DNA of 64,000 nt from Kyrpidia tusciae DSM 2912 (GTDB lineage: Bacteria; Bacillota; Bacilli; Kyrpidiales; Kyrpidiaceae): the NCBI RefSeq assembly GCF_000092905.1, contig NC_014098.1, positions 806,001 to 870,000 of the forward strand, read 5' to 3'. Positions 6,150-59,274 of the stretch are shown here, piece after piece. The notes below the pieces were generated by a model, which was not told the origin of the DNA, ran no database searches, and saw nothing but the letters and a program-made list of their open reading frames with translations. Each line of letters opens with the position of its first letter. Within the stretch, counting starts at the first letter, position 1. Position numbers and translations under genes: made by a program.

Positions 6150-6796
6150 CGGGACCGGCGCCGGTCAACCTGGCGGTGTTCGCGTCGGGCACGGGCTCCA
6201 ATCTCCAGCGCCTCTTGGATTTGAGCCGGCTGGACGAACTCGGTGGGGGCAAGGTGGTGCTGGTGGTGTCGGACAAGCCGGGTTGCCGGGCGCTGGAGAG
6301 GGCCGCGGCGGCCGGGGTCGCGACCTTTGCTTTTTACCCCAAGGCCTATCCGGACAAGCCCGCCTATGAGCGGGAGATCTTGGATCGGCTCCGGGAGCAC
6401 CGGATCGACTGGATTGTTCTCGCCGGGTACATGCGCTTGGTGGGTGAGGTGCTGCTTCAGGCGTATGGTGGGCGGATCATCAACCTCCACCCGTCGTTGT
6501 TGCCGAATTTTCCTGGAAAAGACGCCATTGGCCAGGCGCTGGCCGCCGGGGTGTCCCGGACCGGCGTCACGGTGCATTTTGTGGACGAGGGCATGGATAC
6601 CGGTCCGGCCATCGCCCAAGAGGCGGTGCCGGTGGACCCCGGGGATGACGCGGACTCGCTGGCTGTGAAAATCCACGCGGTGGAGCATCGGCTGCTCCCG
6701 GAGGTGGTCCGGGCGTTGTGCCGGGGGGAAGTTTGGCTGGACAATGGCCAAGTGCACTGGCGCCCGCAGGGTTCGGAGCGGGCGGGACTTCGGTGA
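6146..6796 (+). CDS. purN: Glycinamide ribonucleotide formyltransferase PurN
   Basis: Formyl-THF dependent GAR to FGAR step. It has the FASGTGSNLQ phosphate loop, LAGYMRLVGE, the catalytic NLHPSLLPNF (Asn-His) and VDEGMDTGPAIAQE (Asp). Length is 216 residues with a short non-conserved tail. It overlaps purM by 4 bp; 65 bp separate it from the chosen purH start. Confidence 0.96.
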   Translation: MTGPAPVNLAVFASGTGSNLQRLLDLSRLDELGGGKVVLVVSDKPGCRALERAAAAGVATFAFYPKAYPDKPAYEREILDRLREHRIDWIVLAGYMRLVGEVLLQAYGGRIINLHPSLLPNFPGKDAIGQALAAGVSRTGVTVHFVDEGMDTGPAIAQEAVPVDPGDDADSLAVKIHAVEHRLLPEVVRALCRGEVWLDNGQVHWRPQGSERAGLR

Positions 6797-6861
6797 TGGC
6801 GGGCGGGGATCTGGGGCCGCGGGGGTCCAGGGCCGACAGGATCAAGAAAGGAGTCGCAGAG

Positions 6862-8400
6862 ATGCGCAGGGCACTGATCAGCGTTTCGGATAAAACGGGC
6901 ATCGTCGAACTCGCACAAAAGCTGGCGGCGGCGGGGGTGGAAATTCTCTCCACCGGCGGGACCTCCCGGGCCCTCCGGGAGGCCGGCGTGGCGGTGAAGG
7001 ACGTGTCCGATTTTACCGGGTTTCCCGAGATTCTCGACGGACGGGTGAAAACTCTTCACCCGAGGGTCCACGGGGGCATCTTGGCCTTGCGGGACCGGGA
7101 GGAGCACCGCCGGCAGATGGAGGAGCACGGGCTTTTGCCCATCGATGCCGTGGTGGTGAACCTGTATCCGTTTCGGGAGACGGTGAGCCGCCCGGGAACG
7201 CGGTTTGAGGAGATTGTCGAGCAGATCGATATCGGCGGCCCGAGCTTGATCCGGGCGGCGGCAAAAAATCACCGCCACGTGGCGGTTGTGGTGGACCCGG
7301 CGGATTATGACCGCCTGGCGGAGGCGGCCGGGGGCGGGGCGCCCCTTGGGGAGGGGGATAGGCTCGCCCTGGCGGCGAAGGCCTTCAGGCACACCGCGGC
7401 TTACGACGCGGTCATCGCCGGATACTTGAGCGACCGGGCCGGGGAGCGGTTCCCGGAGCAGCTGACGCTCACCTACGACCGGGTGCAGAGTCTGCGGTAC
7501 GGGGAGAATCCTCATCAGCCGGCGGCCTTTTATCGGGAGCCCTTCGCCGGGCCGTCGACCTTGGCGGGGGCTCGCCAGCTTCACGGGAAGGAACTTTCCT
7601 ATAATAATCTGCTCGACGCCGATGCGGCCCTGCACCTGGTGCGGGAGTTCGAAGGGCCGACGGCGGTGGCGGTGAAACACACGAATCCCTGCGGCGTGGG
7701 GTGGGGAGAAACCCTGGCCGATGCCTTTCACGAGGCCTACGAGGCCGATCCCGTGTCGATTTTCGGCGGGATCATCGCCGTCAACCGACCGTTGGACGGA
7801 GAGACCGCCCGGCAGATGAAGGAGATTTTTCTCGAGATCGTCATCGCTCCGGAGTTTACTCCTGAGGCGCTGGAAATCTTGACCACGAAGAAAAATCTGC
7901 GCCTGTTGGAAATCCCGGGGCTCCGCGAGCCGGTGCGGGAGGGGCTATCGGCCCGAACGGTTTCGGGTGGGCTTTTGGTCCAGGGGACGGATGCGGCTCC
8001 GGTGGTGCCGGACAGTTGGCGGCCGGTGACAAAACGGATCCCGTCTAGGGCGGAGCTGGAGCAGATGGCACTGGCCTGGCGGGTGGTGAAGCATGTCAAA
8101 TCGAACGCCATCGTGTTGGTGCACGGCCGGCGGACGGTGGGGGTCGGTGCCGGGCAGATGAACCGGGTGGGTTCGGCCCGGATCGCCATTGCCCAGGCCG
8201 GGGAGTTGGCCAGAGGATCAGTGATGGCGTCAGACGCCTTCTTCCCGATGTCCGATACGGTGGAGGAGGCGGCCAAGGCCGGGGTGACGGCCATTGTGCA
8301 ACCCGGGGGCAGCATCCGGGATGAGGAGTCGATCCGGGCGGCGGACGAAGCGGGCATCGCCATGGTGTTCACGGGGATGCGGCATTTTCGCCATGGATGA
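6862..8400 (+). CDS. purH: Bifunctional AICAR formyltransferase / IMP cyclohydrolase
   Basis: 512 residues from an ATG with AAAGGAG 8 nt upstream; a longer in-frame extension overlapping purN has no homology. The N-terminal MGS-like cyclohydrolase domain shows ALISVSDKTGIVELA and STGGTSRAL. The C-terminal transformylase domain shows KHTNPCGVG (Lys-His pair), SDAFFPMSDTVEEAA and QPGGSIRDEE. It carries out the last two steps to IMP. Confidence 0.97.
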   Translation: MRRALISVSDKTGIVELAQKLAAAGVEILSTGGTSRALREAGVAVKDVSDFTGFPEILDGRVKTLHPRVHGGILALRDREEHRRQMEEHGLLPIDAVVVNLYPFRETVSRPGTRFEEIVEQIDIGGPSLIRAAAKNHRHVAVVVDPADYDRLAEAAGGGAPLGEGDRLALAAKAFRHTAAYDAVIAGYLSDRAGERFPEQLTLTYDRVQSLRYGENPHQPAAFYREPFAGPSTLAGARQLHGKELSYNNLLDADAALHLVREFEGPTAVAVKHTNPCGVGWGETLADAFHEAYEADPVSIFGGIIAVNRPLDGETARQMKEIFLEIVIAPEFTPEALEILTTKKNLRLLEIPGLREPVREGLSARTVSGGLLVQGTDAAPVVPDSWRPVTKRIPSRAELEQMALAWRVVKHVKSNAIVLVHGRRTVGVGAGQMNRVGSARIAIAQAGELARGSVMASDAFFPMSDTVEEAAKAGVTAIVQPGGSIRDEESIRAADEAGIAMVFTGMRHFRHG

Positions 8401-16236: not shown

Positions 16237-16893
16237 GTGAAGCTCTATTCGATTCGAGAGTTTGCGGAGAAACTCGGCGTCAGTGTCTCCACACTTCGAT
16301 CGTGGGACAGGGAAGGCAAGCTGGTGCCTTTGCGAACTCCCACCAACAAGCGCAGATACACCGAGGATATGTTCTATCAGGCGTTAGGAATCGGGAAACG
16401 AAAAGAAACAAAGAAAACGGTCATTTACGCCCGGGTGTCTTCCGCAGGGCAAAAGCCTGACCTGGAGAACCAGTTGCGTTTCCTGAAGGAATTTGCGGCC
16501 GGAAAGGGCCTCACCATCGACGAGATTTTCGTCGATATTGGGTCGGCGTTGAATGATCGGCGAAAGAATTTCCAAAGGATGTGCGGGGCTGTCACCCGCG
16601 GGGAAATCGAGACGGTGATTGTGGCTCATAAGGACCGGCTGGTCCGGTTTGGGTTTGATTTCTTGGAGGACCTGTTTGCACGGTTCGGTTGCGAGATTCT
16701 GGTGGTCAACAAGGCCGAGGACATGTCACCGGCCCAGGAACTGGCCGAAGATCTAATAAGCATTGTCCGGCATTTTGCGACAAAACTCTACGGGTCACGA
16801 ACCTACAGGGCGCGGAAACTGACCAAAGCGGTTCGGGAGGAGTTGGCCGGTGCGACAGACGATCCGACAAAAGAGCCTGCCGCTGAATCGTGA
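16237..16893 (+). CDS. tnpA: IS607-family serine recombinase TnpA
   Basis: 218 residues. An N-terminal MerR-like HTH (YSIREFAEKLGVSVSTLRSWDREGKLVP) is followed by a resolvase domain with YARVSSAGQ (Ser nucleophile near residue 69) and AHKDRLVRFGFDFLE. N-terminal HTH plus C-terminal catalytic domain is the reversed order typical of IS607 transposases. It mediates excision and integration of the element. Confidence 0.92.
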   Translation: MKLYSIREFAEKLGVSVSTLRSWDREGKLVPLRTPTNKRRYTEDMFYQALGIGKRKETKKTVIYARVSSAGQKPDLENQLRFLKEFAAGKGLTIDEIFVDIGSALNDRRKNFQRMCGAVTRGEIETVIVAHKDRLVRFGFDFLEDLFARFGCEILVVNKAEDMSPAQELAEDLISIVRHFATKLYGSRTYRARKLTKAVREELAGATDDPTKEPAAES

Positions 16894-18283
16894 GAAATGG
16901 AGGCAGATCGTCGAAGTGGCCGAGGCGTATTCCCGGCAGAAGGACGCCTTCTTGGTGGAGTACGCGCAGGTGAAGTCCCTCAAGGATCTGGGGTATAAAC
17001 GGAGAATTCGGGATGAACGGGTGGCCGCCGGGTTTGCGAGTCCCTTTGGTCTTCAGGCCCGGCAGTGGAAGTTGGCCTTGGAAGACGCCTTATGGACCTT
17101 GGAGCGACAGTGGGAAGCGGCGATTGCCGAGGTGCGGGACCGTCTTCACCGCAACGAGGGGTTAACCCCGAAGGAACGGGATTACGCCTTCTGGTTGCTG
17201 GACAAGTTCGGGGACAGGCCCCGGGATTGGAGAAAGATTGAGGCGATTTTTCGGGATGAGGATCTGGCGGGGAAAAAGACCGAATTGGAGCCGGCCGGGC
17301 GGAAGAAGATCCGCCACGGACTGAAGCGGCTGTTTCGCCGGGTCCTGGGAAAGAGGCCGCGGGTCCGGAAAGCCCGGAGTTTTGTTGTGGATCAGCAGAT
17401 GTACCGAGTGTTCATGGTGGGCAACCGGCAGTATGTGGCGGTGATGGGGTTGTCCCCGAGAAAAAGGATCGTGATCCCCCTTTCTGGGATTCACAAGCTG
17501 AGGGGCAATCTGCGGGTGGTTCTGCTGCCGGACGAACAGGCGGTGGAGATTCATATGAGCCGGGAACCGAAGACCTACCCGGCCGGGGAGGAAGAGGCGG
17601 GAATCGACCTGGGAGTCACCGAAGTTCTGACGGACGACTCGGGGAAGAAGTATCGGCCGGAGTACGGCCAGGCCCTGCAAGAGATGTCGGACCACGTGCT
17701 GGACAAAGGACGGAAACGCCAGAAGCTGTGGGCGTTGTATCGCAAAAACCGGGAGCGGGACCCGGGAAAGGCCAGGCGAATTCGTCGGCACAACCTGGGG
17801 CTGGTGAAACAGCACAAGCGACACAGGCGGTACCGGGCGTGGTGCGAGAACGAGATCAACCGGGCGTTTCGGGCGTTTTTTCGGGAACGCCGGCCGAGGG
17901 TGATCGCCTGCGAAGATTTGTCCCACCTGCGGGGGAAGGCGAGGAACAAGGGGCTGTCCCGCAAGGTGAGCCAGTGGCAACGGCAGGCGATCCGGGAGCG
18001 ACTGGAATACTTGTGTCATGTTTATTCCATAACCGATCCGGGACCAGTGAACGCCGCTTATACGAGCCAGACCTGTCCCTGTCCCGGATGCGGGTGGGTG
18101 GACGGCAAGAACCGCAACGGTGATTCATTCCGGTGCCAAAAGTGCGGATATGAAGGAGATGCGGACCATGTGGCGGCGACCAATGTGAAGGGGCGTCTTC
18201 GCGACCAGGAGATCACTAAGTACACCCCACACAAAGAAGTCAAAAGAATTTTGCTGAAGCGCTACTGGGAGAACCACGCATGA
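16850..18283 (+). CDS. tnpB: TnpB RNA-guided nuclease (IS607-associated)
   Basis: 477 residues from a GTG behind GGAGG, overlapping tnpA by 44 bp. The split RuvC triad is complete: Asp in GIDLGVTEVL (about residue 253), Glu in ACEDLSHLRG (about 355), Asp in EGDADHVAATN (about 439). A four-Cys zinc ribbon (CPCPGCG..., CQKCG) lies between the last two. TnpB proteins are guided by an omega RNA from the element's right end to cut donor sites, retaining the transposon. All catalytic residues are present, so the protein looks functional. Confidence 0.93.
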   Translation: MRQTIRQKSLPLNREKWRQIVEVAEAYSRQKDAFLVEYAQVKSLKDLGYKRRIRDERVAAGFASPFGLQARQWKLALEDALWTLERQWEAAIAEVRDRLHRNEGLTPKERDYAFWLLDKFGDRPRDWRKIEAIFRDEDLAGKKTELEPAGRKKIRHGLKRLFRRVLGKRPRVRKARSFVVDQQMYRVFMVGNRQYVAVMGLSPRKRIVIPLSGIHKLRGNLRVVLLPDEQAVEIHMSREPKTYPAGEEEAGIDLGVTEVLTDDSGKKYRPEYGQALQEMSDHVLDKGRKRQKLWALYRKNRERDPGKARRIRRHNLGLVKQHKRHRRYRAWCENEINRAFRAFFRERRPRVIACEDLSHLRGKARNKGLSRKVSQWQRQAIRERLEYLCHVYSITDPGPVNAAYTSQTCPCPGCGWVDGKNRNGDSFRCQKCGYEGDADHVAATNVKGRLRDQEITKYTPHKEVKRILLKRYWENHA

Positions 18284-24122: not shown

Positions 24123-24950
24123 ATGCGTAGCATGGTCGGGCTTCATGCGATCATTCGCGTCATCCCGGGCGGTAAAAGGGCGGCCAAAAGTGGGTATCGG
24201 ACTGTGCAAAACAAGGTGGCCGACGAGCGTACCGGTGTCATCGTGTATTTGCCGCCGGAACCCCGGGATGTGCCCACCTTGATGGAAGACCTCGTGGCAT
24301 GGGTGAATCGACCGGAGACCCGGGACATTCCGGCGCCGATTCAGGCGGGCATCTTTATCTAGCAATTTTTGACGATCCATCCGTATGTCGACGGCAATGG
24401 GCGGACGGCGCGGGCCTTGGCAACCTACCTTCTCAGGCAACACGATTTGTGGTTGAAAGGTCTTTTTGTTCTGGAGTCTTATTATGACCGAAATTTGGAA
24501 GGCTACTACAAGAATCTGCAGATGGGGCTTCCTCATAATTACTATTTTGGGCGAAATGATGCGGACCTGACGCCCTGGCTGGATTTTTTTATCGAGGGGT
24601 TGGCGGAAGTATTTCGAGAAGCCGCGGAGCTGGTTCGCAGAAAAAGTCTGTCGTTCATGGCGGTGGAGCCGGATCTGCTGCGGCGGTTGGATCCATCTCA
24701 GCGGGTCGTTTTTGCGCAAATGGCGTTTCGAACCCCCGTCTTGACCACGAGCGATCTTGCAAAATTGCTGAATTTGCGGGACCGGACGGTGCGGGAGAGG
24801 CTGAAACGGTGGATCGCCGAGGGCTTTCTCCGGCCGCGGGATGAACACGCCAAGCGCATTCGCTCTCTGGTCTTAACCGAGGGCTACGAAGAGCTGGCGA
24901 AGGCGGTTCGAGAGGATCCCGAGCGGTATCGCTATCTGCTGGGGGATTGA
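24123..24950 (+). pseudogene. Fic-domain protein, 5'-truncated with an in-frame TAG
   Basis: A single frame encodes a Fic C-terminal half: GYRTVQNKVADERTG, the active-site loop TIHPYVDGNGRTARALATY (consensus HPFx(D/E)GNGR, catalytic His present), and a C-terminal winged-helix part (TTSDLAKLLNLRDRTVRERL). A TAG at 24360-24362 sits just before QFLTIHPYVDG, where relatives have Tyr (HYQF), so one base change broke it. The N-terminal ~100-150 residues of full-length Fic proteins are also missing. Intact members transfer AMP or other groups to proteins. Confidence 0.8.
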
Positions 24951-25027
24951 TGCGGGACGGGGGATGGGGGGCCTGTGAAAACGTCCCGTGCTATACTATA
25001 CTCAACGTCGATATGAGATGTGGTCGC

Positions 25028-25171
25028 ATGTTTCGCAAGCACCAACACCAGGTGTCGTTTGCAGATGCGGACAATTGGTTGGCCAAAACCCCTCCCAACT
25101 CCATCTGGCATCGTTTTCGCACATGGGCGCAGGAGAACGGATGTGATTCGAGTGAATCGATACCTCTTTAA
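25028..25171 (+). CDS. Short ORF, possible 5' remnant of a transposase
   Basis: 47 codons, ATG 25028, overlapping the helicase start. The translation MFRKHQHQVSFADADNWLAK and the following PPNSIWHRFRTWAQ resemble, from memory, the N-terminus of IS1182-type transposases; the rest of such a gene is absent. It may equally be a leader peptide, or an upstream part of the helicase region by frameshift. A TATACT -10-like element lies at 24992. Confidence 0.3.
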   Translation: MFRKHQHQVSFADADNWLAKTPPNSIWHRFRTWAQENGCDSSESIPL

Positions 25172-27209
25172 GCCGAACTGGGATCTTCTGGAACTGAACG
25201 CCCTGGAGATGGACCGCGGACTGGTTCATTTTTTTCGTTCTGTGTATGAACTGAACGACCATGACGTTGTCGAGGTCGAATTCGTCAACGGCAGGGGCGT
25301 TTCCCGAAAACTGAAAGTCAACATGGCGGACAGGCTGCTTCAGGGGCGGGGCATCAAGGGCTTGTTTACCCCGTACGAAGGGGCGGACTACCTGTTTATC
25401 GAAGCCGGTCCGGATGGAACAATCCGGGTGTCCGATTGGTCCGGCGGCTCCGACGGGTCCGGCGAACTCGCGGCTTCTGCGATCCAACCGGACGTCACCC
25501 AACGGACGGCTGCCGTTCTGTCCGCCATGAGCCAGATGAAGCGGCAGGAGCAGGTGTGGTTCGACCTGTACGACGCGGCGAAACAGTTCGCCGTCTCCCG
25601 CGTGGACGACTTGATCTGCCTGCCCCACATTCGGGAACTGGAACCCTTCGAGTATCAAATCAAGACCGTGCAATCGGTCATGCACCAGTTCAAAGGCCGG
25701 GCGCTGCTCTGTGACGAGGTGGGACTGGGCAAGACCGTCGAGGCGGGGATCTGCATGATGGAATATATCATGCGGGGATTGGCGAAGAAGATTCTCATTC
25801 TGGTCCCGCCTTCTCTGATCAACCAGTGGCATGAAGAAATGAAGCGCAAGTTTAACCAGGACTTCATCCGCTCCGACGATCGCGCGTTCATCGCTCTCGG
25901 CGAAGAGGCCTGGAGAAGATACAACAAGGTCATCGCCTCGCTGGCCACGGCCAAACGCCCCAACCACCGCCGGGTCATCTCCGACATTCATTACGACCTC
26001 ATCGTGGTGGACGAGGCGCATCATGTCAAAAACCGCAATTCTGTCGCCTGGCAGTTCGTCAACAGCCTGAAGAAAAAATACATGCTGCTCCTGACCGCCA
26101 CGCCGGTGCAGAACAGCCTGGAGGAACTGTATAACCTGATCACCCTGCTCAAGCCCGGACAATTGAAGACCTATTCGCATTTCCGTCGCCATTTCGTGGT
26201 GGACAACCAGGGCGTCGAGGTCAAAAATGCGGACAAGCTCCGGGCCCTGCTGTCCGAGGTCATGATTCGCAACCGGCGCAGCAGCGTCGACGTCAAGTTC
26301 ACCAAGCGGCAAGCCCATACGAAAACCGTCCGGTTGTCGGAACCGGAACAACGGCTTTACATCGACCTCAGCCGTTTTATTCGCGTTCATTACACGGATG
26401 ATCATCCCGTTTTTTCGCGCTTTCTGCTCAAAAGCATGCAGGAGCAGATGGGCAGTGCGTTCGCCTCGGTGTTGGGATCATTGGAAAAACTCTCCACGCA
26501 CCCCGGCCTGGGTCCGGATGACAAGCGGGCTGTGACGGAATTCGCCGAACGCGCCGCCGAGATTGCCGCAACGGAAGGGGAGCAAAGCGCCAAAGTTGCG
26601 GAACTCATCCGGATCCTGTCGGCATTCGGCGATAAGATGATCGTATTCACGAAATACCGCGCCACCCAGGAGATCCTGGTCCGGGCCCTGCGCCGGCGCG
26701 ATTTTCGCGTGGCGGAGTTTCACGGCGGGCTCACCCGGAAAGAGAAAGACCGCGAGGTCGCCTATTTTCGCGAGGAAGCCGATGTGCTGGTGAGCACGGA
26801 GGTCGGAGGTGAAGGGCGCAATCTGCAGTTCTGCAACGGCATGGTCAATTTCGACCTGCCCTGGAACCCGATGGCCATCGAGCAGCGCATCGGCCGCATC
26901 CACCGGATTGGACAAACCCGGGACGTATTCGTGTACAATTTGGCGGCCCTCCATACGTTGGAACATCACATGTTGGATGTCCTCGACCGCAAAATCAACC
27001 TGTTCGAGCTCGTGGTCGGGGAAGTGGACATGATCCTCGGCGACATCGCAGAGAGCGAGGACTTTTCCGACCTGGTGATGAATGCCTGGGTCCAATCGGA
27101 AGATGAGGCCGCCGTGCAGCGCGAAATGGAACGGATCGGGGAACAGTTGCTGAAGAATAAACATCAACTGGAGCGCGTCAAGGAGCTGGATGAGCGCCTG
27201 TTCTCCTGA
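25143..27209 (+). CDS. SNF2-family (DEAH) helicase/translocase
   Basis: 688 residues from a GTG with AGGAG upstream; the longer reading to 25020 adds unlikely sequence. The N-terminal ~165 residues form a beta-rich domain I do not recognise. The helicase motifs are complete: DEVGLGKTVEAG (I, about residue 191), LVPPSLINQW (Ia), VVDEAHHVKN (II, about 290), LLTATPVQN (III), STEVGGEGRNLQF (V) and EQRIGRIHRIGQTR (VI). It resembles RapA/YqhH-type SNF2 proteins but has its own N-domain. The 27231 gene follows after 21 nt and probably forms a unit with it. A role in DNA/RNP remodelling or phage defence is inference. Confidence 0.88.
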   Translation: MIRVNRYLFKPNWDLLELNALEMDRGLVHFFRSVYELNDHDVVEVEFVNGRGVSRKLKVNMADRLLQGRGIKGLFTPYEGADYLFIEAGPDGTIRVSDWSGGSDGSGELAASAIQPDVTQRTAAVLSAMSQMKRQEQVWFDLYDAAKQFAVSRVDDLICLPHIRELEPFEYQIKTVQSVMHQFKGRALLCDEVGLGKTVEAGICMMEYIMRGLAKKILILVPPSLINQWHEEMKRKFNQDFIRSDDRAFIALGEEAWRRYNKVIASLATAKRPNHRRVISDIHYDLIVVDEAHHVKNRNSVAWQFVNSLKKKYMLLLTATPVQNSLEELYNLITLLKPGQLKTYSHFRRHFVVDNQGVEVKNADKLRALLSEVMIRNRRSSVDVKFTKRQAHTKTVRLSEPEQRLYIDLSRFIRVHYTDDHPVFSRFLLKSMQEQMGSAFASVLGSLEKLSTHPGLGPDDKRAVTEFAERAAEIAATEGEQSAKVAELIRILSAFGDKMIVFTKYRATQEILVRALRRRDFRVAEFHGGLTRKEKDREVAYFREEADVLVSTEVGGEGRNLQFCNGMVNFDLPWNPMAIEQRIGRIHRIGQTRDVFVYNLAALHTLEHHMLDVLDRKINLFELVVGEVDMILGDIAESEDFSDLVMNAWVQSEDEAAVQREMERIGEQLLKNKHQLERVKELDERLFS

Positions 27210-27230
27210 TTGAAGGTGGGGGAAGACCGG

Positions 27231-28196
27231 ATGGAACTGCAAAAATTGGTCACGACGGCCATCGAGGCGATGGGCGGGATCGTGGTGCCGGTGGAATACG
27301 CCCTTTGCCAGGTCGTCGTTCCGGAAGAGTACAAAGATCTGTTTCAGGGCAGGGATGAGCTGGAGGTGGCGTTTGATTTCGAGGTGGCGGAGGAAAATCC
27401 CCAAGCGGAGTTTGTCACCTTCGGCAGCTATCTGTTCGATCAGATCATGGGGTTTGTTCGCCGGCAGGCGGTGAGCACCGTTTGGTTTGCCGACATCGAT
27501 CCCCCCGCACTGTCGGGCCCCTTGGACAAGATCCGCCGTTTCATGGCCGAAGAACGGGGGACTTTGACGCTGCGCAGCGAACGCCCCGTGATGGGAGCAT
27601 GGGCGGTGTTTTCGTTTCGGATCGGCTATGTTTCGGACGAGAAAGAGGAAGAATTCTGCCGGGTATGGGTGGACATGACCCGAGGGGCCCTCGATGAAGA
27701 CATGGGCAGAAGCGCGGATGGGGTTCCCTATGCGGACACGCCTGTGCACGCCCTGCCGGTGGTCGCGCGAACCGATGTCCCGGGTGCGTTCCGCCTGGCG
27801 TTGGAGCAGGTGACCGAGGTGGGGCAGCGAGGACGGCTGCAGCGGGTCAGGCAGGCGGAACTGGAGCGGGAGAGAAAGCGCATCGTCGACTACTATGACG
27901 AATTGAGCCGGGAGATCGTCAAACGGACCGGGCGTAAAGGACTGACGGAAGAAAAGCGAAAAGAATTGCTGGACAAGGCCCGATCCGTGGAGTTGGAGCG
28001 GCAGAAACAACTTGCGGAAATCGAGAAAAAATACGACATCCGCGTCGAGCCGGTTCTCGACCACGGCGTCGTGGTGATGGCCCCGTTGTTGGAATATGTC
28101 GTGTCCATCTCCGAGCGGCGGGTGGAGAAAGAGGTCACGCTTTATTACAACCCGATCCTGAAGCGGTTTGCTCTAGTCCCGGGCGACCGTCCATGA
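27231..28196 (+). CDS. Coiled-coil protein paired with the SNF2 helicase, unknown function
   Basis: 321 residues, ATG behind GGTGGGGGA. The N-half is a mixed alpha/beta domain (MELQKLVTTAIEAMGGIVVP...). Residues about 200-270 are a highly charged predicted coiled coil (RQAELERERKRIVDYYDEL, ...VELERQKQLAEIEKKYDIR). The C-terminus returns to beta strands (VVVMAPLLEYVVSIS). I recognise no family. The tight spacing and shared direction suggest a helicase partner, perhaps a substrate-binding subunit. Confidence 0.75.
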   Translation: MELQKLVTTAIEAMGGIVVPVEYALCQVVVPEEYKDLFQGRDELEVAFDFEVAEENPQAEFVTFGSYLFDQIMGFVRRQAVSTVWFADIDPPALSGPLDKIRRFMAEERGTLTLRSERPVMGAWAVFSFRIGYVSDEKEEEFCRVWVDMTRGALDEDMGRSADGVPYADTPVHALPVVARTDVPGAFRLALEQVTEVGQRGRLQRVRQAELERERKRIVDYYDELSREIVKRTGRKGLTEEKRKELLDKARSVELERQKQLAEIEKKYDIRVEPVLDHGVVVMAPLLEYVVSISERRVEKEVTLYYNPILKRFALVPGDRP

Positions 28197-28328
28197 AAGG
28201 GACCGTTCTGCCGGGCCGAGCAGGGTGATTCTGGCGATTTTGGCCGTCGACAGGACTGTGTGGATGATGGGTCCTGTGCGCGGGGTCCATCTTGTTGTAT
28301 CGAGTTCATTTGACGGAGGTGTTGCGGG

Positions 28329-28910
28329 GTGAGCCGAAAACCGCCGCAAGTTCGGGAAGAGCCCGTCACGTATGAGCAATACGCGGCGCTTCCCGATGAC
28401 GGATACCGGTACGAGCTGGTCGACCAACGCCTGGAGCCGATGAGTCCGGCCCCGTCGACCATCCACCAGCTGTTCGTGGCAGCGCTGAGAGACGTGCTGA
28501 ACGGCGAGTGCGGGAGAGACTATCTTTTGATTTTGAGCCCCATTGATGTGGTGTTTTCGGACCGCGACGTCCGCCAACCGGATCTCGTTGTGGTGCACCG
28601 GGACCGCATGGACATTGTGAGGCTGCGGGGGATTTTCGGCGTGCCGGATCTGGTGGTGGAGGTTTTGTCTCCAGGCAGTTTTCAACGCGATCGCGTCGAG
28701 AAGTGGGCGACATATTCGAAATACGGTGTGCCGGAATATTGGGTGGCCGATCCGGTGAACGGGACCTTGGATCAGTATGTGTGGAGTCGTGATCAGTTAT
28801 CGCTATCAAGAGTGTACGAAGCCGACGAGTGCGTGTCTTCCGAACGACTCCCGTGCGTGAAGTTCACGATGGGCGACCTGTTGCGAATTCTGCCGAAATT
28901 GCCCGAATAA
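28329..28910 (+). CDS. Uma2-family putative endonuclease (DUF820)
   Basis: 193 residues; GTG behind GACGGAGGT. A PD-(D/E)XK fold of the Uma2 type: YELVDQRLEPMSP at the start, RQPDLVVVH with the core Asp, PDLVVEVLSPGS (Glu), then EKWATYSKYGVPEYWVADP (Lys-bearing helix and terminal strand). Uma2 proteins are widespread in cyanobacteria and Bacillota; function is unproven. A second, divergent Uma2 lies at 43351-43878. Confidence 0.88.
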   Translation: MSRKPPQVREEPVTYEQYAALPDDGYRYELVDQRLEPMSPAPSTIHQLFVAALRDVLNGECGRDYLLILSPIDVVFSDRDVRQPDLVVVHRDRMDIVRLRGIFGVPDLVVEVLSPGSFQRDRVEKWATYSKYGVPEYWVADPVNGTLDQYVWSRDQLSLSRVYEADECVSSERLPCVKFTMGDLLRILPKLPE

Positions 28911-28962
28911 GTTAGGCCGCGGGGAGACGAGGTCTGTTACTGTCCCGCCGGCGGAATGGCGC

Positions 28963-29415
28963 CTATTGAGGCGTCGGATCCACGGCGATCCCATGGGATT
29001 CGAGCCACCGGATGATTTGTCGGCGATGAGCTTCGTGCTCAAAGTCAAACCAGCGTTCCCGTTCCTCCGGGTAATCGGCCAGCACGTCTTTGAAGTGTCG
29101 GAACGGTTTCCGGCCCGACAAGGCGCGCTCCAGCCGGCGTCGGATGGTGAAGGCGCTGACGGTATCGGCGAATTCGGCCATCAGTTCGTAGGCCTCGTGG
29201 GATTCGATTTGGGGGATCCGCAGGTATGTTCGGCCCAATCCGGCGTCGAGCTTCTTTTCCAATTCCTCGATGTATTCATCAGTCCCGTAAACCACCGGAT
29301 CGAACCATGTCACAATCTCACCGCTGGTGACGTTTAAAAAATGTTGGCGTTCCACCCCGTTGTCAGCATATGCGTCGCACAGTTCATCGAGATTTAAGTT
29401 TGGAATCCGCTTCAT
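28963..29415 (-). CDS. UPF0158 family protein
   Basis: 150 residues; starts MKRIPNLNLDELCDAYADN behind GAGAGGGG. The pattern of a short N-terminal helix, the FLNVTSGEIVTWFD strand pair, YLRIPQIESHEAYELM and the C-terminal RRLERALSGRKPFRHFKD...ERWFDFEHE matches UPF0158 members, whose function is unknown. It converges on the Uma2 gene. Confidence 0.8.
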   Translation of the reverse strand: MKRIPNLNLDELCDAYADNGVERQHFLNVTSGEIVTWFDPVVYGTDEYIEELEKKLDAGLGRTYLRIPQIESHEAYELMAEFADTVSAFTIRRRLERALSGRKPFRHFKDVLADYPEERERWFDFEHEAHRRQIIRWLESHGIAVDPTPQ

Positions 29416-29552
29416 GATTCACCGCCCCTCTCGGAGAGTCTGCCTCCGGTCCATGTCCAGGCTCACGATCTACTGTATAGAGTAGCTTCTCGCCGCCGAT
29501 CTTTCAATGGTTCTAAAAGGCGACAAGGGGAATCCAGCCCGCAGGAATTGCC

Positions 29553-30860
29553 GTGCGGTTGTCGAATTGTTCTTTGGATACGCTTCAGGAAGGAGTGGGC
29601 CGGTTGACGGACGACATGTTGGAAGCCATGTATCCCTTGTGCCGTGATTTTGAAACCTTTATGGACTATGTGGGCCGGAGTGAGGTGGCGGTATCCAAGA
29701 AAAACCAGTGGCTTTCTCGCAGGGTGTTGTACGAACTCAATGGGCTGGTCAGCCGCCCCGAACCGGGTGCCACGCCGAATAAGGACCAAATTTCTTATCC
29801 TCTGTTACATTTGTTGTACCATCTCGGCCGTGCAGGGCGCTTGCTGCAAGTGGAGGCGCACAAGGCGAATCGGTGGATCCTGAAGCCGACGGAGCGGTAT
29901 GAGCAATATCAACAGTTGAGCCTCGTAGAACAGTATATCTTTCTGCTGGAGACGTTTTGGGTGGATGTGAACTGGAGCGATATGGTGAGGGACACCAGGA
30001 TGTGGGAGTTGCCTCCGCTGGACAGCACGTTTCGTGTACTGCTGCGTCTTCCGAGTGATCGAGTCAGCCGGCTGGCTGCGGATGACGACGGGGACGACAA
30101 CACAGAGCGGATCCGTTATTTGCTGTGGTATATGGGTGAGTTTGTAGATTATTTTGCTGCCTTTGGATTCTGGACGTTTGAGGAGGACAAGGAGGAAGGG
30201 CGATATAAGGGGCGAATCGCCGTTGCAGCGATTACGCCCACGCCGCTGTTTAAGAAGATCGGGCCGGTGTTGTTACAGGAGCGCCCTTTGCAGTTGTGGA
30301 ACTCGGCGATGCGCCGGGAATTCGGGGGATGGGCGGAGCGGCCGAGGCGGCTGGTTCGTAAGGTTCCCGAGGTGAAATCTTCGCCTTTTTATGAACCCTT
30401 TGTCCGCTTGTTTCCAAACGGCGAGCTCCAGCGGAGCCTGCCGCGGGAACCGCGAGGTTTCCAAAACGGGATTTATGTCTTCCAGGTTTCTCTGAGCCGC
30501 AGTTGCTGGCGAACGATCGCGGTCAGCGCCCGGCACACGGTGGAGGATCTGCATCGCGCCATTCAACGAGCTTATCGGTTCGGCGACGACCATTTATATT
30601 CATTTTTTCTCGATGGAAAAAAATGGTCTTCCCAATCCGTGAATTCACCCTACTCGGACCAAGGGCCCTACGCCAACGAGGTCCTGATCGGCGAGTTGAA
30701 CCTCCTCCTTGGGCAGCGGATTCTTTATCTGTTCGATTACGGCGACGAATGGACATTTGACGTTCTGTTGCGAGAGATTCGCCCGGGAGGGGATCTGGTC
30801 AAGCCGGAGATCATCGAAACACGCGGGGAAGCGCCGGATCAGTACACGTACTGGGAGTGA
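29553..30860 (+). CDS. Protein with C-terminal pRiA4b ORF3-like domain
   Basis: 435 residues. The C-terminal ~130 residues match the plasmid pRiA4b ORF-3 family: YVFQVSLSRSCWRTIAV, ARHTVEDLHRAIQRAYRF, DDHLYSFFLDGK and LFDYGDEWTFDVLL. The N-terminal ~300 residues are mainly helical and not recognised by me. The GTG has GCAGGAA upstream; a truncated 5' end cannot be excluded. It stands alone in an accessory stretch. Confidence 0.75.
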   Translation: MRLSNCSLDTLQEGVGRLTDDMLEAMYPLCRDFETFMDYVGRSEVAVSKKNQWLSRRVLYELNGLVSRPEPGATPNKDQISYPLLHLLYHLGRAGRLLQVEAHKANRWILKPTERYEQYQQLSLVEQYIFLLETFWVDVNWSDMVRDTRMWELPPLDSTFRVLLRLPSDRVSRLAADDDGDDNTERIRYLLWYMGEFVDYFAAFGFWTFEEDKEEGRYKGRIAVAAITPTPLFKKIGPVLLQERPLQLWNSAMRREFGGWAERPRRLVRKVPEVKSSPFYEPFVRLFPNGELQRSLPREPRGFQNGIYVFQVSLSRSCWRTIAVSARHTVEDLHRAIQRAYRFGDDHLYSFFLDGKKWSSQSVNSPYSDQGPYANEVLIGELNLLLGQRILYLFDYGDEWTFDVLLREIRPGGDLVKPEIIETRGEAPDQYTYWE

Positions 30861-31015
30861 TTCGGCAATAAGGAGCACATCGGTGTCGCCAGGCGACCCT
30901 GGATTGCGGCCGGTCCAGGGTGCCGGGCGTGGTCGGTGGCAGCACCCGCGGGGACCGGGTCAGGGTTCTTGCGGCTCAGGGGGTGCGGGGTGACCCGAAC
31001 AGGCGTCGGGAATCG

Positions 31016-31449
31016 TGGGTGAGGGAGGAGCCGATGGACATCCGGATGCCGTTCCCGAGTTCTTTTGGATTCTTCAATATGTACCGACCGAGGAGCCGGC
31101 TTTCGGGCGTGCCTGAATTCACGGCCTGGATAAAGGCGTCCATGACCGACTGCGGGACCGCGGCGCGATCCTGGACCAGGTGAATCTCACTGCTAACCGG
31201 GAGAGGCTTTCCGTCGAGAGAAGCGGTGTGGGCGCCGACGCGAACCAACAGCCGGTGACCTTGTTTCTCGATGATCGCCGTTTGGCCGGCTTCGTCCCAA
31301 GTGACGAGAGCTCCTTGGGCTTCCGCGGCGGACCGAAGCGGGACCTCGGCGTCCGCACCGACAGCGGCGGGTGGGAACAACAGCATCACCGTCGTGACGA
31401 CCGAAGTCGCGATCGGAATTGTTCGCCGGGGGATGAAAGGAAAAGGCAT
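31016..31449 (-). pseudogene. Truncated duplicate of the secreted esterase-like protein (5' part)
   Basis: About 145 codons nearly identical to the N-terminus of the 36060-37622 gene, including the signal peptide and stalk-like domain up to RMSIGSSLTH, where it switches to unrelated sequence and stops at ~30976. The start differs: here ATG lies 7 nt after AAGGAGGAACTGACC. The DNA duplicate spans 31016-31527 versus 37182-37692. Confidence 0.9.
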
Positions 31450-31537
31450 GGTCAGTTCCTCCTTATCAATCGGAAAAAAGTTTTTATCTCTTCGGATGAA
31501 TGTACCGCAGCGGCATGAACGGATGGATGCCCAGTGC

Positions 31538-31589
31538 AAAAAAAAAAAAAAGGCCGCCGCGAGACTCCGCTAAAAAGACTCGCGACGGC
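31538..31589 (-). terminator. Rho-independent terminator of the ald-DUF779 operon
   Basis: On the minus strand, a 14-bp stem (31576-31589 with 31553-31566, 12 pairs plus a wobble) with a ~9-nt loop is followed by an uninterrupted T-run (A-run on the plus strand ending at 31551). It lies 15 nt after the DUF779 stop. Confidence 0.9.
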
Positions 31590-31604
31590 TATGAAAGGCG
31601 GATT

Positions 31605-31979
31605 TCATGACTCCCCGCGTTCGACGGCGTTCCACTCCTCGTCCGTAAAGGCCCTGGATCGGGTGAGAAACCGGAGACCTTCCGGACTCTCTAAAGAAAA
31701 CCCGCTTCCCCGTCCCGGCACCACGTCGATAATCAGTTGCGTGTGCCGCCAGTACGCGTACTGGGACTCGCTCATATAAAAGGGACACCCGCCGATGTCG
31801 CCCAAGTACACGTCCCGGGTGCCGACCTTGAACTCCCCGAGCGGGTAACACATCGGGGCACTGCCGTCGCAACACCCTCCCGACTGATGGAACATGAGCG
31901 GACCGTGAAGAGATTTGAGCTTTTCGATCAGCGTTAGGGCGGCCTCTGTCGCCACGACCTTCCGGGTATCCATGGCCAC
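31605..31979 (-). CDS. DUF779 domain protein (acetaldehyde dehydrogenase companion)
   Basis: 124 residues; GTG behind AAAGGAGG. DUF779 hallmarks: LMFHQSGGCCDGSAPMCY with paired cysteines, VYLGDIGGCPFYM and YWRHTQLIIDVV. These genes are typically next to exaC/aldB-type aldehyde dehydrogenases, as here (34 nt downstream). Function is unknown; the Cys-rich motif suggests a metal or redox role. Confidence 0.88.
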   Translation of the reverse strand: MAMDTRKVVATEAALTLIEKLKSLHGPLMFHQSGGCCDGSAPMCYPLGEFKVGTRDVYLGDIGGCPFYMSESQYAYWRHTQLIIDVVPGRGSGFSLESPEGLRFLTRSRAFTDEEWNAVERGES

Positions 31980-32013
31980 GTTCGCCCTCCTTTCCGAAAA
32001 CCCGCGACCGGGT

Positions 32014-33534
32014 CTAGAACAGGCCCAAACCTCGGGTACTGTAGCTGATCAACAGATTTTTCGTCTGCTGATAATGTTCCAGCATCATCTTGTGGTTCTC
32101 GCGGCCGAAACCGGACTGCTTGTATCCGCCGAACGCCGCATGAGCCGGATACTGATGATAGGTGTTCACCCACACCCGGCCGGCCTGAATGCCGCGGCCC
32201 ATCCGGTACGCCGTATTGATGTTCCTCGTCCATACGCCCGCACCCAGCCCGTACAGCGTATCGTTCGCGATTTCCAAGGCGTGGTTCGCATCTTTGAACG
32301 AAGTCACCGACAGAACGGGTCCAAAAATCTCCTCTTGAAAGATACGCATTTTGTTGTGGCCGGCAAAAATCGTCGGCTTGACATAATAACCGCCGGCCAA
32401 ATCTCCGGGCAACTCGTTGCGTTCGCCTCCCAGCAGGAGTTCCGCCCCCTCCTGTTTGCCGAGGTCGATGTACGACAGGATCTTTTCGAGTTGATCCGTC
32501 GAGGCCTGGGCGCCGATCATCGTTTCCGTATCCAAGGGATTGCCCTGCTTGATCGCCTTGGTGCGTTCGATCGCCCGCTCGAGAAACGGATGGTAGATGC
32601 TCTCCTGGATCAGAGCCCGGGACGGGCAGGTACACACCTCTCCCTGGTTGAGGGCGAACAGTGCGAAACCTTCCAGTGCCTTGTCGACAAATTCGTCTTC
32701 CCGGTCGAGGACATCTTCGAAGAAGATGTTCGGCGACTTGCCGCCCAGTTCCAGTGTCACGGGGATGATGTTCTCGGAGGCGTACTGCATGATCAACCGA
32801 CCGGTGGTCGTCTCCCCGGTGAACGCCACTTTTCGGATCCGCGGATTCTGGGCGAGCGGCTTCCCGGCTTCCACCCCGAACCCGTTGATCACATTGACCA
32901 CTCCCGGAGGAAGGAGATCCCCGATGAGTTCCATGACCACCATGATGCTGGCCGGGGTCTGTTCCGCGGGTTTTAGCACGATGCAGTTGCCCGCAGCCAG
33001 AGCCGGGGCGAGTTTCCACGCCGCCATGAGGATGGGAAAATTCCACGGAATGATCTGGCCCACCACGCCGATGGGCTCATGAAAATGATAGGCCACCGTG
33101 TCGTGATCGATCTCGCTGATCCCCCCTTCTTGGGCGCGAATCACCCCTGCGAAATACCGGAAATGGTCGATGGCCAGGGGAATGTCGGCCGCCAGAGTCT
33201 CGCGGACGGGTTTGCCGTTGTCCCACGTCTCCGCGACCGCCAACATCTCCAGGTTGGCTTCCATGCGGTCGGCGATCCGGTTCAGGATCTCTGCCCGCCG
33301 GGCCACCGGCGTGCGGCCCCAGGTCTCTTTGGCCGCATGGGCCGCGTCAAGGGCCAACTCAATGTCTTCCGCCGTGGATCGCGCCACTTCGCAGAATGGC
33401 TTGCCGTTGACCGGAGAGATATTGGGAAAATAGTTTCCCTTCACCGGCGGGGTCCATTTGCCGCCAATCCAGTTGTCGTATCGGCTCTTGAAACTGACCT
33501 TGCTGCCGGGACGCCCGGGCTGTTCGTAAATCAC
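32014..33534 (-). CDS. NAD-dependent (acet)aldehyde dehydrogenase
   Basis: 506 residues, GTG start with GGAGG 9 nt upstream. ALDH motifs: [27 protein letters not shown], catalytic Glu in LELGGKSPN and catalytic Cys in [15 protein letters not shown]. The GEVCTCPSR form and DUF779 partner fit AldB/ExaC acetaldehyde dehydrogenases. It is transcribed from a sigma-54 promoter ~40 nt upstream and probably acts with the nearby zinc alcohol dehydrogenase in alcohol oxidation. Confidence 0.93.
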
Positions 33535-33573
33535 GGTCTCATACCTCCTCCGTCGAGTGTCGTTTTCTTACCA

Positions 33574-33589
33574 AGCAAGATTCTTGCCA
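33574..33589 (-). promoter_or_regulatory. Sigma-54 promoter of the aldehyde dehydrogenase operon
   Basis: Minus-strand TGGCAAGAATCTTGCT: GG and GC are at the correct -24/-12 spacing (TGGCA-N6-TTGC). It lies 40 nt upstream of the GTG start. The divergent neighbour encodes an AcoR-like regulator, the usual activator for such operons. Confidence 0.85.
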
Positions 33590-33805
33590 GGGGCTGAAGA
33601 CGAACGACCCCGGTCTTTTCGGGATGGAGAACGACGGCCCGGCGGCACCTCCTGCGCCAATCCGGCGCACATGTTCCATCTTGGCACAGCGGAGAACGGG
33701 TCCATCTCACACCCATGAATCCCGGTCGACGTCCCCGGATCCGAGCGATCGACGGTATATGAATTCTGTTATAATTATGATTGAGCCCCTCTGGAGGTGG
33801 TCGCG

Positions 33806-34564
33806 GTGTGCGCACGGAATTTGATCCTTCGGGACTCTTGGTGGCGAAGCTGGGAGTACGGCGTCGAGACCGACGTCCTGGTGGAAGACATCCTTGAGCC
33901 CCCGCAGCTAAAAATTCTCAAAGAAGAAAAAGAGCAACTGCTGCAAGTCGTCACTCCGGCGATGGAGCGGCTTCACGGATGGGTGTACTCCCAGCACGCG
34001 ACCGTCATGGTTTCTCACGTGAACGGCTATATCCTCTACAGTGTCGGCGATCCGAAGTTTATGAGCGATGCCCAAAAGATCCATTTAAAAGAAGGGGCCG
34101 GCTGGTCGGAGAGATCCCGGGGAACCAACGCGATCGGCACGGCCGCCGCGGTTCGCGAGCCCGTTTCGGTGGTCGGCGGCGAACATTTTCTTGAACGAAT
34201 CGGAAAAGAGCAGGGAATCCCCGACCTCAAATTGTCCCCGGCCGTCAAACGAATGATGGAAGAATATCCTTGGCCGGGAAACGTGCGGGAACTGTATGCG
34301 GTGCTGCGCCAGGCTGCATTTTTTGCTGAGGGCGGCGAAATCCGGATCGAACATTTGCCGGTGCACATGGCGGACCGGCAGAAAAAGGGCAAGCCTCGGC
34401 CGGATGGGCACTTGGACGACCCGCCGTCCCTGCGGCAGGTGGAATATGAGGCGATCCTGGATGCGCTCCGGTCCACCGACGGTAATATGACCCAGGCCGC
34501 GCGTCTCCTGGGAATTGGGCGCAATACCCTTTATCGCCGGTTGCGAAAGTTGGGCGGGAAGTGA
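33806..34564 (+). pseudogene. AcoR-like sigma-54 regulator lacking its AAA+ domain
   Basis: 252 codons, GTG behind GGAGG. Residues 1-~135 match the AcoR N-terminus and GAF region (SWWRSWEYGV, GWSERSRGTNAIGTAAAVREPVSVVGGEH). The sequence then jumps to the end of the AAA+ module (KLSPAVKRMMEEYPWPGNVREL) and the Fis HTH (MTQAARLLGIGRNTLYRRL). Walker A, GAFTGA and Walker B (about 250-350 residues) are missing in frame. The joint is at EHFL, a word plausible in both GAF and AAA+ contexts, suggesting short-homology deletion. It could bind DNA but not open sigma-54 promoters. Confidence 0.85.
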
Positions 34565-34779
34565 CAGATGCTCCTCATGACTGCCCGTGCCCGATTCACC
34601 GGTCGATCTCTGTTCGTATGTTCGCGAATCAGGCGAATAAAAGGGGGTCCGAAGCGCAAAACAAGTGGAAAGCGGGGAGACCGGACGGCCTCCTTTCGCA
34701 TGTTCGCGAAAAAAAGGAGGGGCGGCTGCAGACCGCGAGGCGCAGATGTCGCTGTCATTGTCAATGGTACATCCGGACC

Positions 34780-36059: not shown

Positions 36060-37622
36060 TTAGTGCCCGGTTCCCATGGCGAACAACCAGATTTCCGAGG
36101 GGATACCGGTCTGGGTGGTGTTGTCGATCCCGAAGTCGTTGTCGTTGGCCACGGCCAAGGTTTGGTCGTCCGCCATGGCGATGCCCTCGATTTTCTCATA
36201 GGGATAGCCGTACTTTAACAGGTCGAGGAAAAGGGACTTACTGGGCAACACCACGCCCCGGCGGTCGAGATCCGCCACCGTCATCTGTTCCAGGGTCTTC
36301 CCTCCGGATGCAGCGCTGTCGAATCGCCCGAGGATGTTGGTGGCACCGGAGAGATCAAGTTTATAGATCCGCTTCAGCTTTGCTTGATCCCCGGCATACT
36401 TATCCCGCTCGTCCACCAGCAGGGTGTGATCATCCAATGCGTACAAGTCGGAAACCACAATATCGGACGGTTTCAACCCGGGGTACGCTTTCGCGTCGTC
36501 CGCTACGTAAGGATATTCGGCCACCGGGGCCATTTTTTGCAGGTCGAATTGGAGGATCCGCATGATTCGAGACTTTTTCCCCGTAGCCTGGTCAGGATTT
36601 CCGAGTGGACTCTGCACCACCGCGAAGAGCCATTTTCCGTCCGGGGTCACGGTGACGCCCTCGATGCCGCGGTTGGGAATACGGTCCGCGTACACCGCCG
36701 GGAGCAGGTCCTTTACGGGCACATTCGGCGCTCCGGCAAAGAGGGATGCCTCGCCCGCCGGGACGATCCGCTCGAGAATCGTGCCGTCCCGCTTCACGTG
36801 GACGATGCTGGGCCGGTACTCTTCACCGAGCCAGAAGGTGTCGTCCTGGGGGTTATAGGCGAGGCCCTCGGTGTCCAACCCGTACGGGTCGTAGGGAAGC
36901 TGCTTCTCACCTTTCGCATCGTACGGTGTTTCGTCCATACCGGGAAAATTGGAGACACCCGAGATCTGGTCGGTGCCGGTGACGGGGTCGGTGCCCTTGG
37001 GCAGTTTCAGGGGAATCTCCTGAAGTACGTTGACCTGCCCGTCTTTGAGTTCTACTTTGTAGATCGTGGGAGTGTACGTCGGCAAAGGGAACGTGGTCCG
37101 GCTGTCCTGTCCGGCTTGGACACTGCCGTTCGGACCCCGGTCGGCGGTGGTATAAAACACGTTGGCAGGATCGCCGGGTAAGTGGGTGAGGGAGGAGCCG
37201 ATGGACATCCGGATGCCGTTCCCGAGTTCTTTTGGATTCTTCAATATGTACCGACCGAGGAGCCGGCTCTCGGGCGTGCCTGAATTTACCGCCTGGATAA
37301 AGGCGTCCATGACCGACTGCGGGACCACGGTGCGATCCTGGACCAGGTGAATCTCACCGGTAACCGGGAGAGGCTTTCCGTCGAGAGAAGCGGTGTGGGC
37401 GCCGACGCGAACCAACAGCCGGTGACCTTGTTTCTCGATGATCGCCGTTTGGCCGGCTTCGTCCCAACTGACGAGAGCTCCTTGGGCTTCCGCGGTGGAC
37501 CGAAGCGGGACCTCGGCGTCCGCACCGACAGCGGCGGGTGGGAACAACAGCATTACCGTCGTGACGACCGAAGTCGCGATCGGAATTGTTCGCCGGGGGA
37601 TGAAAGGAAAAGGTATGGTCAT
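36060..37622 (-). CDS. Secreted esterase-like activity of phytase family protein
   Basis: 520 residues. Signal peptide (IPIATSVVTTVMLLFPPAAVGA), then a copper amine oxidase N-terminal-like (stalk) domain at residues ~40-135 (PLPVTGEIHLVQDRTVVPQS). The C-terminal ~370 residues form a propeller-like phytase/esterase-like domain with NRGIEGVTVTPDGKWLFAVVQ, LDTEGLAYNPQDDTFWLGEEY and KIEGIAMADDQTLAVANDNDFG. It is probably exported and cell-wall or surface active; substrate unknown. Start: ATG is only 2 nt after AAGGAGG; the duplicate's ATG position reads ATA here. Confidence 0.85.
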   Translation of the reverse strand: MTIPFPFIPRRTIPIATSVVTTVMLLFPPAAVGADAEVPLRSTAEAQGALVSWDEAGQTAIIEKQGHRLLVRVGAHTASLDGKPLPVTGEIHLVQDRTVVPQSVMDAFIQAVNSGTPESRLLGRYILKNPKELGNGIRMSIGSSLTHLPGDPANVFYTTADRGPNGSVQAGQDSRTTFPLPTYTPTIYKVELKDGQVNVLQEIPLKLPKGTDPVTGTDQISGVSNFPGMDETPYDAKGEKQLPYDPYGLDTEGLAYNPQDDTFWLGEEYRPSIVHVKRDGTILERIVPAGEASLFAGAPNVPVKDLLPAVYADRIPNRGIEGVTVTPDGKWLFAVVQSPLGNPDQATGKKSRIMRILQFDLQKMAPVAEYPYVADDAKAYPGLKPSDIVVSDLYALDDHTLLVDERDKYAGDQAKLKRIYKLDLSGATNILGRFDSAASGGKTLEQMTVADLDRRGVVLPSKSLFLDLLKYGYPYEKIEGIAMADDQTLAVANDNDFGIDNTTQTGIPSEIWLFAMGTGH

Positions 37623-43350: not shown

Positions 43351-43878
43351 CTAGAAAGAAAAAACATCTTTCAAGTCAATCGTTAAATCAGGGAAAATTC
43401 CGACGGTTGCGGTTTCATCGTTTCCGTATACGATCGGTGGCTCCAACACATTTTCCGAAAGCATGTAGACCTCGACAATCTGGTTTGAACTATCCACAAT
43501 CCAATATTCTCGCACACCAGCCACCCTGTAAGCGCGCAATTTAACCGTCTTGTCTTTAACAGCCGTAGATGGCGAAAGCACTTCGATAATCATATCCGGC
43601 ACGCCAACACAGCCCTGCCGATGGATTTTCGTTGGATCGCACACCACCGTTATGTCCGGCTCAACGTAGTTTCCGTTGTCGTCGGCATCGAGCCAGACAC
43701 CAAACGGTGCGGGAAACACTTTGCACGTCTTCCCCTTCAGGTACACACTTATTTCTCGGATCAGGTTACTCACGATACTTTGATGGTCAGAGGTCGGCGG
43801 TGGCGACATATCGTAAATCGCGCCATCAATTCGCTCCCACCGCTCAAACTTTGACTCGTCAATCCGGTTGGCCTCCAC
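43351..43878 (-). CDS. Uma2-family putative endonuclease (second copy)
   Basis: 175 residues from GTG 43878 with AAGGAG 9 nt upstream; two earlier in-frame ATGs lack a good site. Uma2 pattern: WERIDGAIYDMSPPPTSDHQ, VEPDITVVCD (Asp), PDMIIEVLSPSTAVKDKTVKL (Glu...Lys), VAGVREYWIVDS. It is only distantly similar to the 28329 protein. Flanked on both sides by gene scraps. Confidence 0.85.
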   Translation of the reverse strand: MEANRIDESKFERWERIDGAIYDMSPPPTSDHQSIVSNLIREISVYLKGKTCKVFPAPFGVWLDADDNGNYVEPDITVVCDPTKIHRQGCVGVPDMIIEVLSPSTAVKDKTVKLRAYRVAGVREYWIVDSSNQIVEVYMLSENVLEPPIVYGNDETATVGIFPDLTIDLKDVFSF

Positions 43879-43971
43879 AGACCCTCGCTCCTTCTTTGGT
43901 TCGCATCTTACGTGCATTGTAGCACGGTTCAACATTATTTATTAACCCGTCATGACAGCGGGTGCAGGCTG

Positions 43972-54430: not shown

Positions 54431-54688
54431 CGTTTGTCCTTCGTTGTCTTGTTGTTTTTACGATGCCATTGTTGCTGGCATTGCCTCTGCGTCACATTGC
54501 TGTCAGGATGCGGAAATGCGATCGAGACATATTTCGGCTTGTTTCTCTCTGTCTAGAAGTTAAGCGGCGCACGTATGGCATTTTAGCTTGTAGTTCCATA
54601 GCATTGAGAAAACTAGTCGGTATCGTGTCGCTAAGTGTGATTAAGGCCTCCATGCAAACAAGCGCTATTGATTAAAGGTGGTGTTTTC

Positions 54689-55549: not shown

Positions 55550-55559
55550 GGGGATGCAT

Positions 55560-56633: not shown

Positions 56634-56750
56634 ACTGGAATTAATTGTACCAAGTAGGCATGGACGAGTGTCAGCGAATCTTTGCTCGTTTAAAATGATA
56701 TCCTGTCCGCGATAGAGTGAGTAGCCGCAAAATACACCGTTCGATTGCAA

Positions 56751-57065: not shown

Positions 57066-57219
57066 ATTCCCCTTCTAGTGAATGGTTCAACTGTTGCGTC
57101 TTAGGCAGAAGAAGATTTCAATAGATGACAACAGGTTTAAGCAACGATTTAAGCTGCGTAGGGAATAAAGACACAACGCAAAGATTCCAAAGATTAGCCA
57201 GCCAAAGGAGGATCAGACG

Positions 57220-58859: not shown

Positions 58860-58861
58860 AC

Positions 58862-59272: not shown

Positions 59273-59274
59273 TC

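Follow-up and report, generated by a model that had tools for sequence, protein, structure and literature searches.

A two-gene locus of Kyrpidia tusciae encodes an SNF2 motor and a YqhG-like partner that probably form a split, RapA-like machine

In the genome of Kyrpidia tusciae DSM 2912, we identified two adjacent genes for an SNF2 motor protein and a smaller partner, which fairly probably specify the two chains of a RapA-like ATPase that would remodel RNA polymerase, an accessory version of the paralogous YqhH–YqhG pair. The role of the pair is probably in transcription recycling and not in phage defence. Both chains are RapA-like by fold, the partner is homologous to YqhG, and the pairing of the two genes is near-absolute, so that the simplest reading is a two-subunit translocase that would remodel RNA polymerase (RNAP). 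The stretch of DNA analysed (64,000 nt; hereafter, the window) corresponds to positions 806,001–870,000 of the single-contig genome of 3,384,766 bases. The features of the locus are listed in Table 1.

Table 1. Features of the two-gene locus, in positions of the window
Feature	Positions	Strand	Basis and remarks
SNF2 translocase, RapA/HepA (YqhH)-like motor, 688 aa	25143–27209	+	Pfam, identity with YqhH, fold match, AF2 model
N-terminal alpha/beta domain (helicase residues 1–100)	25143–25442	+	Alignments; pLDDT mostly about 90
Motif I, DEVGLGKT (Walker A; helicase residues 191–198)	25713–25736	+	Nearly invariant in 30 homologues
Motif II, DEAH (helicase residues 290–293)	26010–26021	+	Invariant in 30 homologues
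Motif VI, QRIGRIHRIGQ (helicase residues 581–591)	26883–26915	+	
Partner, YqhG-like, 321 aa; resembles a detached C-terminal part of RapA	27231–28196	+	hhalign, Foldseek, alignment
Conserved motif LEVAFDFEVAEENPQAEFVTFGS (partner residues 44–66)	27360–27428	+	Aligned with a 21-residue stretch of RapA
Three-helix charged region, earlier called a coiled coil (partner residues 183–267)	27777–28031	+	AF2 model; 47% charged
Strain-variable segment holding the pair	24992–34755		blastn collinearity with Kyrpidia G021 stops at 24991 and resumes at 34756

Gene layout and the motor protein

Both open reading frames are intact and lie 21 nt apart, in agreement with the initial annotation of this DNA, which had placed two genes at 25143–28196 with such a gap. 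The helicase gene starts with a GTG codon, AGGAG being located just upstream, at a position that its homologues share, while the partner gene starts with ATG; a plausible ribosome-binding site precedes each of them. Promoter and terminator scans returned weak candidates only (24975–25002 and 28266–28291). In comparison with the copies in Kyrpidia Bu79, dN/dS is 0.14 for the helicase and 0.15 for the partner, values that denote purifying selection and imply that both genes are maintained.

The first gene product had been taken for a complete SNF2/DEAH motor, which is borne out by its Pfam matches (SNF2-rel_dom, 7.6e-43; Helicase_C, 1.7e-24) and by the presence of all the motor motifs, i.e., the three listed in Table 1 and TATP. 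It is 45% identical to the YqhH of the same genome over residues 147–664. RapA is its top PDB match by fold (Foldseek, 597 columns; AF2 model with pLDDT 85.6) and also its closest relative among solved structures by phmmer. The N-terminal domain, which had appeared unfamiliar, gave no match in a Pfam search with residues 1–100; alignments show that a domain of ~100 residues is common to the clade of the window copy (the accessory clade, see below) and missing from YqhH. Sequence comparison with the N-terminal domain of RapA, considered as its source, gave no match.

The partner, YqhG and RapA

The partner returned nothing significant in Pfam, NCBIfam, PADLOC or the PDB sequences. The OmpH and SPX-type matches fall within its helical region and seem to reflect composition alone. 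In the AF2 model (pLDDT 89.4), two beta-rich parts flank three helices of 23–28 residues each (183–205, 208–233 and 240–267); of the “long charged coiled coil” described at first, the charge thus stands but the long coil does not. The same annotation could not place the protein in any family, while we find it to be a remote relative of YqhG by hhalign (probability 98.3, E 2e-14, 246 columns) and RapA-like in structure by Foldseek.

A first search of the genome contigs with the single partner protein gave no match. A profile built from the partner together with its relatives finds the fetched YqhGs (best value 4e-16), and in the genomes of 41 relatives its matches are the known YqhG loci and true orthologues, and nothing else. 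The weak partner matches in three Bacilli genomes (G001, G044 and G064) are YqhG genes directly 3′ of YqhH helicases; a further one (L020, in G030), on the opposite strand of a murA-like gene, was considered spurious and set aside. Pairwise identity between the partner and YqhG is low, and the window partner carries inserts between the blocks they share. The Pfam model PF11079 (cut-off, 25 bits), with which the canonical YqhG of the same genome scores 123.8 bits, gives no match to the window partner and a single one amongst 20 partner homologues (E 0.082); the accessory partner of B. fonticola also stays under the cut-off (E 5.8e-4). As judged from these comparisons of sequence, the partner is a relative of the YqhG family outside PF11079 as curated. 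In the alignment, a C-terminal zinc ribbon (CPxCG...C) is found in clostridial partners and is missing from the accessory clade.

When the model of the partner was compared with 350,542 PDB chains, only two reached E ≤ 0.001, both of them E. coli RapA (2.9e-7 and 6.1e-7; about 315 columns, 12–13% identity), and these are the only RapA entries among the 50 Foldseek matches listed. The TM-scores are low (0.33–0.39), the domain parts possibly being oriented differently. The placement of the partner on the C-terminal part of RapA comes from the motif and profile sequence alignment, not from the fold match: the FDFEVAEENPQAEFVTFGSYL motif aligns with a 21-residue stretch near RapA residue 757, and the order of the elements agrees. 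The RapA C-terminus scores 10.8 bits, versus 5.3 bits for 1000 shuffles of itself; hhalign of the partner with six RapA C-termini yields a probability of 2.3% and a score of 24.8, and one in 100 column shuffles reached 27.2. The sequence evidence for kinship with RapA is only suggestive. A likeness of YqhG to RapA may have been stated earlier in the literature, of which we searched the open-licence papers.

RapA, the best PDB fold match for each of the two chains, and the window pair share the same order, a motor followed by the C-terminal part or, in the window pair, its putative equivalent, yet RapA is one chain and the machine proposed here two, in which no RapA-type N-terminal domain is recognisable from sequence. 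The RapA order also occurs in a natural single-chain fusion of 987 aa (L110), composed of a helicase, a YqhG-like domain and zinc fingers. It is very hard to believe that the partner would be an unrelated regulator that shares an operon with the motor, its similarity to RapA and YqhG being convergent. The low pairwise identity to YqhG and the failure of the window partner to match Pfam would suit such a protein, whereas the near full-length profile match to YqhG, the identical gene order and pairing in the YqhG and partner families, the fusion and the RapA fold match all speak against it.

Long relatives of YqhG extended by cysteine-rich, zinc-finger-like repeats were seen at L103 (1782–3824 of that locus) and L109 (8916–10781), as well as in the L110 fusion (4622–7585), all on the minus strand. 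A 1.6-kb sequence filed as cyanophage AS-1 (L180; DQ115825) specifies a RapA-like C-terminus, 30% identical to E. coli RapA; this sequence is probably host DNA or from another source.

Pairing, clades and genomic setting

The window partner is located directly 3′ of a YqhH-type SNF2 helicase, the arrangement also seen in B. subtilis and other Bacilli, where the SNF2 motor YqhH (HepA) is directly followed by YqhG; the window helicase differs in belonging to a separate clade and in its extra N-terminal domain. The canonical pair is present in the same genome, with YqhG at 701680–702426 (genome coordinates) behind the YqhH mentioned above. It is this canonical copy that gcvT adjoins, not the window pair.

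Of 399 Bacillota genomes surveyed, 32 have a partner match, and in the loci fetched from them, each full-length, separate partner-like gene stands directly behind an SNF2 helicase; the exceptions are the L110 fusion and L107, an SNF2 protein of a single chain in which a short motif is all that is shared. A scan of the genome collection provided 49 named loci, partly on the same contigs as the Bacillota survey. In 45 of these, a helicase and a partner were identified on the same strand; apart from L124, they are neighbours throughout, with short gaps or, frequently, overlaps of 8–38 nt. In L124, an insertion splits the helicase from the partner; in L123, an IS110-type transposase is located within the partner; and in L159, the partner is broken and the helicase was not matched. 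These three cases indicate that disruption and loss of the pair are possible. In L130, the helicase is present and the partner runs to the contig end, while L157 and L158 start at or near a contig end. A helicase accompanies all 30 sampled YqhG loci. In a sample from the cyanobacterial phylum, the short stretch retrieved for each of 12 partner-like matches included a helicase in eight cases, adjacent in seven. The idea of a two-gene system, put forward from the window alone, is thus upheld: the pair is conserved far beyond one strain and occurs in many genomes. On a Chondrocystis plasmid (L162; AP018284), the helicase is annotated as a “type III restriction enzyme res subunit”, the partner homologue follows 25 nt on, and the pair adjoins integrases.

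A helicase tree rooted with other SNF2 proteins resolves three clades, YqhH, clostridial and accessory (the last including the window copy), of which the clostridial and accessory clades are sisters (support 0.94). All 10 Bacilli genomes with an accessory pair that were checked, as well as the Kyrpidia genomes, also carry YqhG, so that in Bacilli the accessory pair is an extra copy. None of nine other hosts, several with incomplete genomes, has a YqhG match: seven belong to the clostridial clade, and the remaining two (L122 and L154) branch basally in the accessory clade. The presence of the clostridial sister clade in hosts without YqhG suggests a core function. YqhG was found in 111 of 151 Bacilli genomes sampled; the distribution of the accessory pair in Bacilli is patchy and scattered.

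Kyrpidia G021 lacks the pair and has unrelated DNA in place of the strain-variable segment. In Kyrpidia Bu79, homology to the window is limited to 25158–28163, in effect both genes, in other surroundings, from which it follows that the pair changes place as a unit. In other Bacilli, inspection by eye found ordinary neighbours: ilv, nag, nad, mntP-ywlE-rpiB and mur genes, and transporters. Across the related loci, we found no recurrent third gene, defence neighbour or repair gene adjoining the pair, and no relative of the pair came up in phage records or viral-structure searches.

These observations bear on the reading with which the locus was first singled out, defence against phages or plasmids by a system that spreads horizontally and, like DISARM or BREX, directs its SNF2 motor at foreign DNA. 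The patchy occurrence alongside core YqhHG, the variable segment and the different site in Bu79 are what such a system might display; the best PADLOC matches of the motor are BrxH, DrmD and HmaA, with which it shares a similar SNF2 core, and nearby Uma2 and Fic genes also match PADLOC models. The motor, however, scores 242.8 bits with the NCBIfam DrmD equivalog against a cut-off of 610 (two partner homologues also match the DrmD model weakly, E 0.019), and companion genes of DISARM, BREX or Hma were absent from the neighbours scanned. In line with the initial annotation, which had noted the lack of a methylase or phospholipase-type partner, neither protein has a methylase, nuclease or phospholipase domain in Pfam searches. 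With the core function that the clostridial clade suggests, and with ordinary chromosomal neighbours, no recurrent defence gene and no phage match, we find no positive support for defence, and we regard this reading as improbable. The defence or mobile-element island described around the pair does contain Fic, Rpn-like, Uma2 and IS genes, and the segment that holds the pair varies between strains, but a recurrent defence setting is not seen; given that no third gene recurs, that there is no clustering with defence genes elsewhere and that no phage relative was found, the island is probably a coincidence.

Other elements of the window were recorded in passing. The Fic gene (24123–24950) is a truncated remnant, lacking ~466 bp relative to an intact 376-aa version in Kyrpidia G021. 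Two Uma2-like genes (putative restriction endonuclease; 28329–28910 and 43351–43935) both match PADLOC PDC-S03. At 16237–18283, a MerR-like recombinase is followed by a TnpB-type protein (matched by Cas12f models), which looks like an IS607-type element. Two minus-strand open reading frames ~5 kb apart (30976–31539 and 36060–37622) share the N-terminal sequence PFPFIPRRTIPIATSVVTTVMLLFPPAAVGADAEVPL, a partial duplication. The G+C content of 53000–62000 is about 45%, below the value of about 60% that prevails in the window, and this region was possibly acquired.

Proposed function of the pair

In the split RapA-like machine that we favour, the two chains would assemble into one unit, a motor and a separate equivalent of the RapA C-terminal region. 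The motor would pull on duplex DNA where RNAP has stalled or backtracked or is left after termination, while the partner would hold or shape the motor on its substrate; as a result, RNAP would be freed or its grip on DNA reset. The benefit of a second copy might lie in stress or in transcription–replication collisions. In the literature, HepA (YqhH) of B. subtilis figures as a protein that binds RNAP and acts on it when stalled (PMC7385302), and E. coli RapA as an RNAP recycling factor (PMC8666675). The enzymatic activities of B. thuringiensis YqhH and its part in UV survival (PMC10054049), given below, are also counted in favour of this reading. YwqA of B. subtilis is another RapA homologue, by literature description only, and appears with RNAP in a PcrA pull-down (PMC3797733).

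Rather unlikely, in our estimation, is a two-subunit translocase for DNA repair or replication forks, which would act on lesions or nucleoprotein roadblocks, with the partner loading the motor onto damaged DNA and RNAP not being the main target. It could draw on B. thuringiensis YqhH, which has ATPase and helicase activity, unwinds DNA as a purified protein, and whose loss lowers UV survival (PMC10054049), on the reduced MMS survival upon hepA loss combined with PcrA depletion (PMC7385302), and on the zinc ribbon that ends the clostridial partners. Against it stand the structural relation of both chains to RapA, an RNAP-bound enzyme, and the lack of a recurrent adjoining repair gene.

A bolder version of the split-RapA reading, to which we give little credence as a whole, combines YqhG-type proteins as the detached subunit of a split RapA with a window clade that would be an extra, horizontally shuttled form, stripping RNAP from selected (e.g., incoming) DNA; a housekeeping recycling factor would thereby have given rise to a conflict system that targets transcription.

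Pfam lists the function of YqhG as unknown. Should the C-terminal subunit of a split RapA turn out to be a YqhG-type protein, work on YqhH (HepA) by itself has covered half an enzyme, and the role of the Firmicutes equivalent of RapA would become directly testable by co-expression of both proteins. With its different front domain, the accessory clade would be a naturally occurring second version against which to compare.
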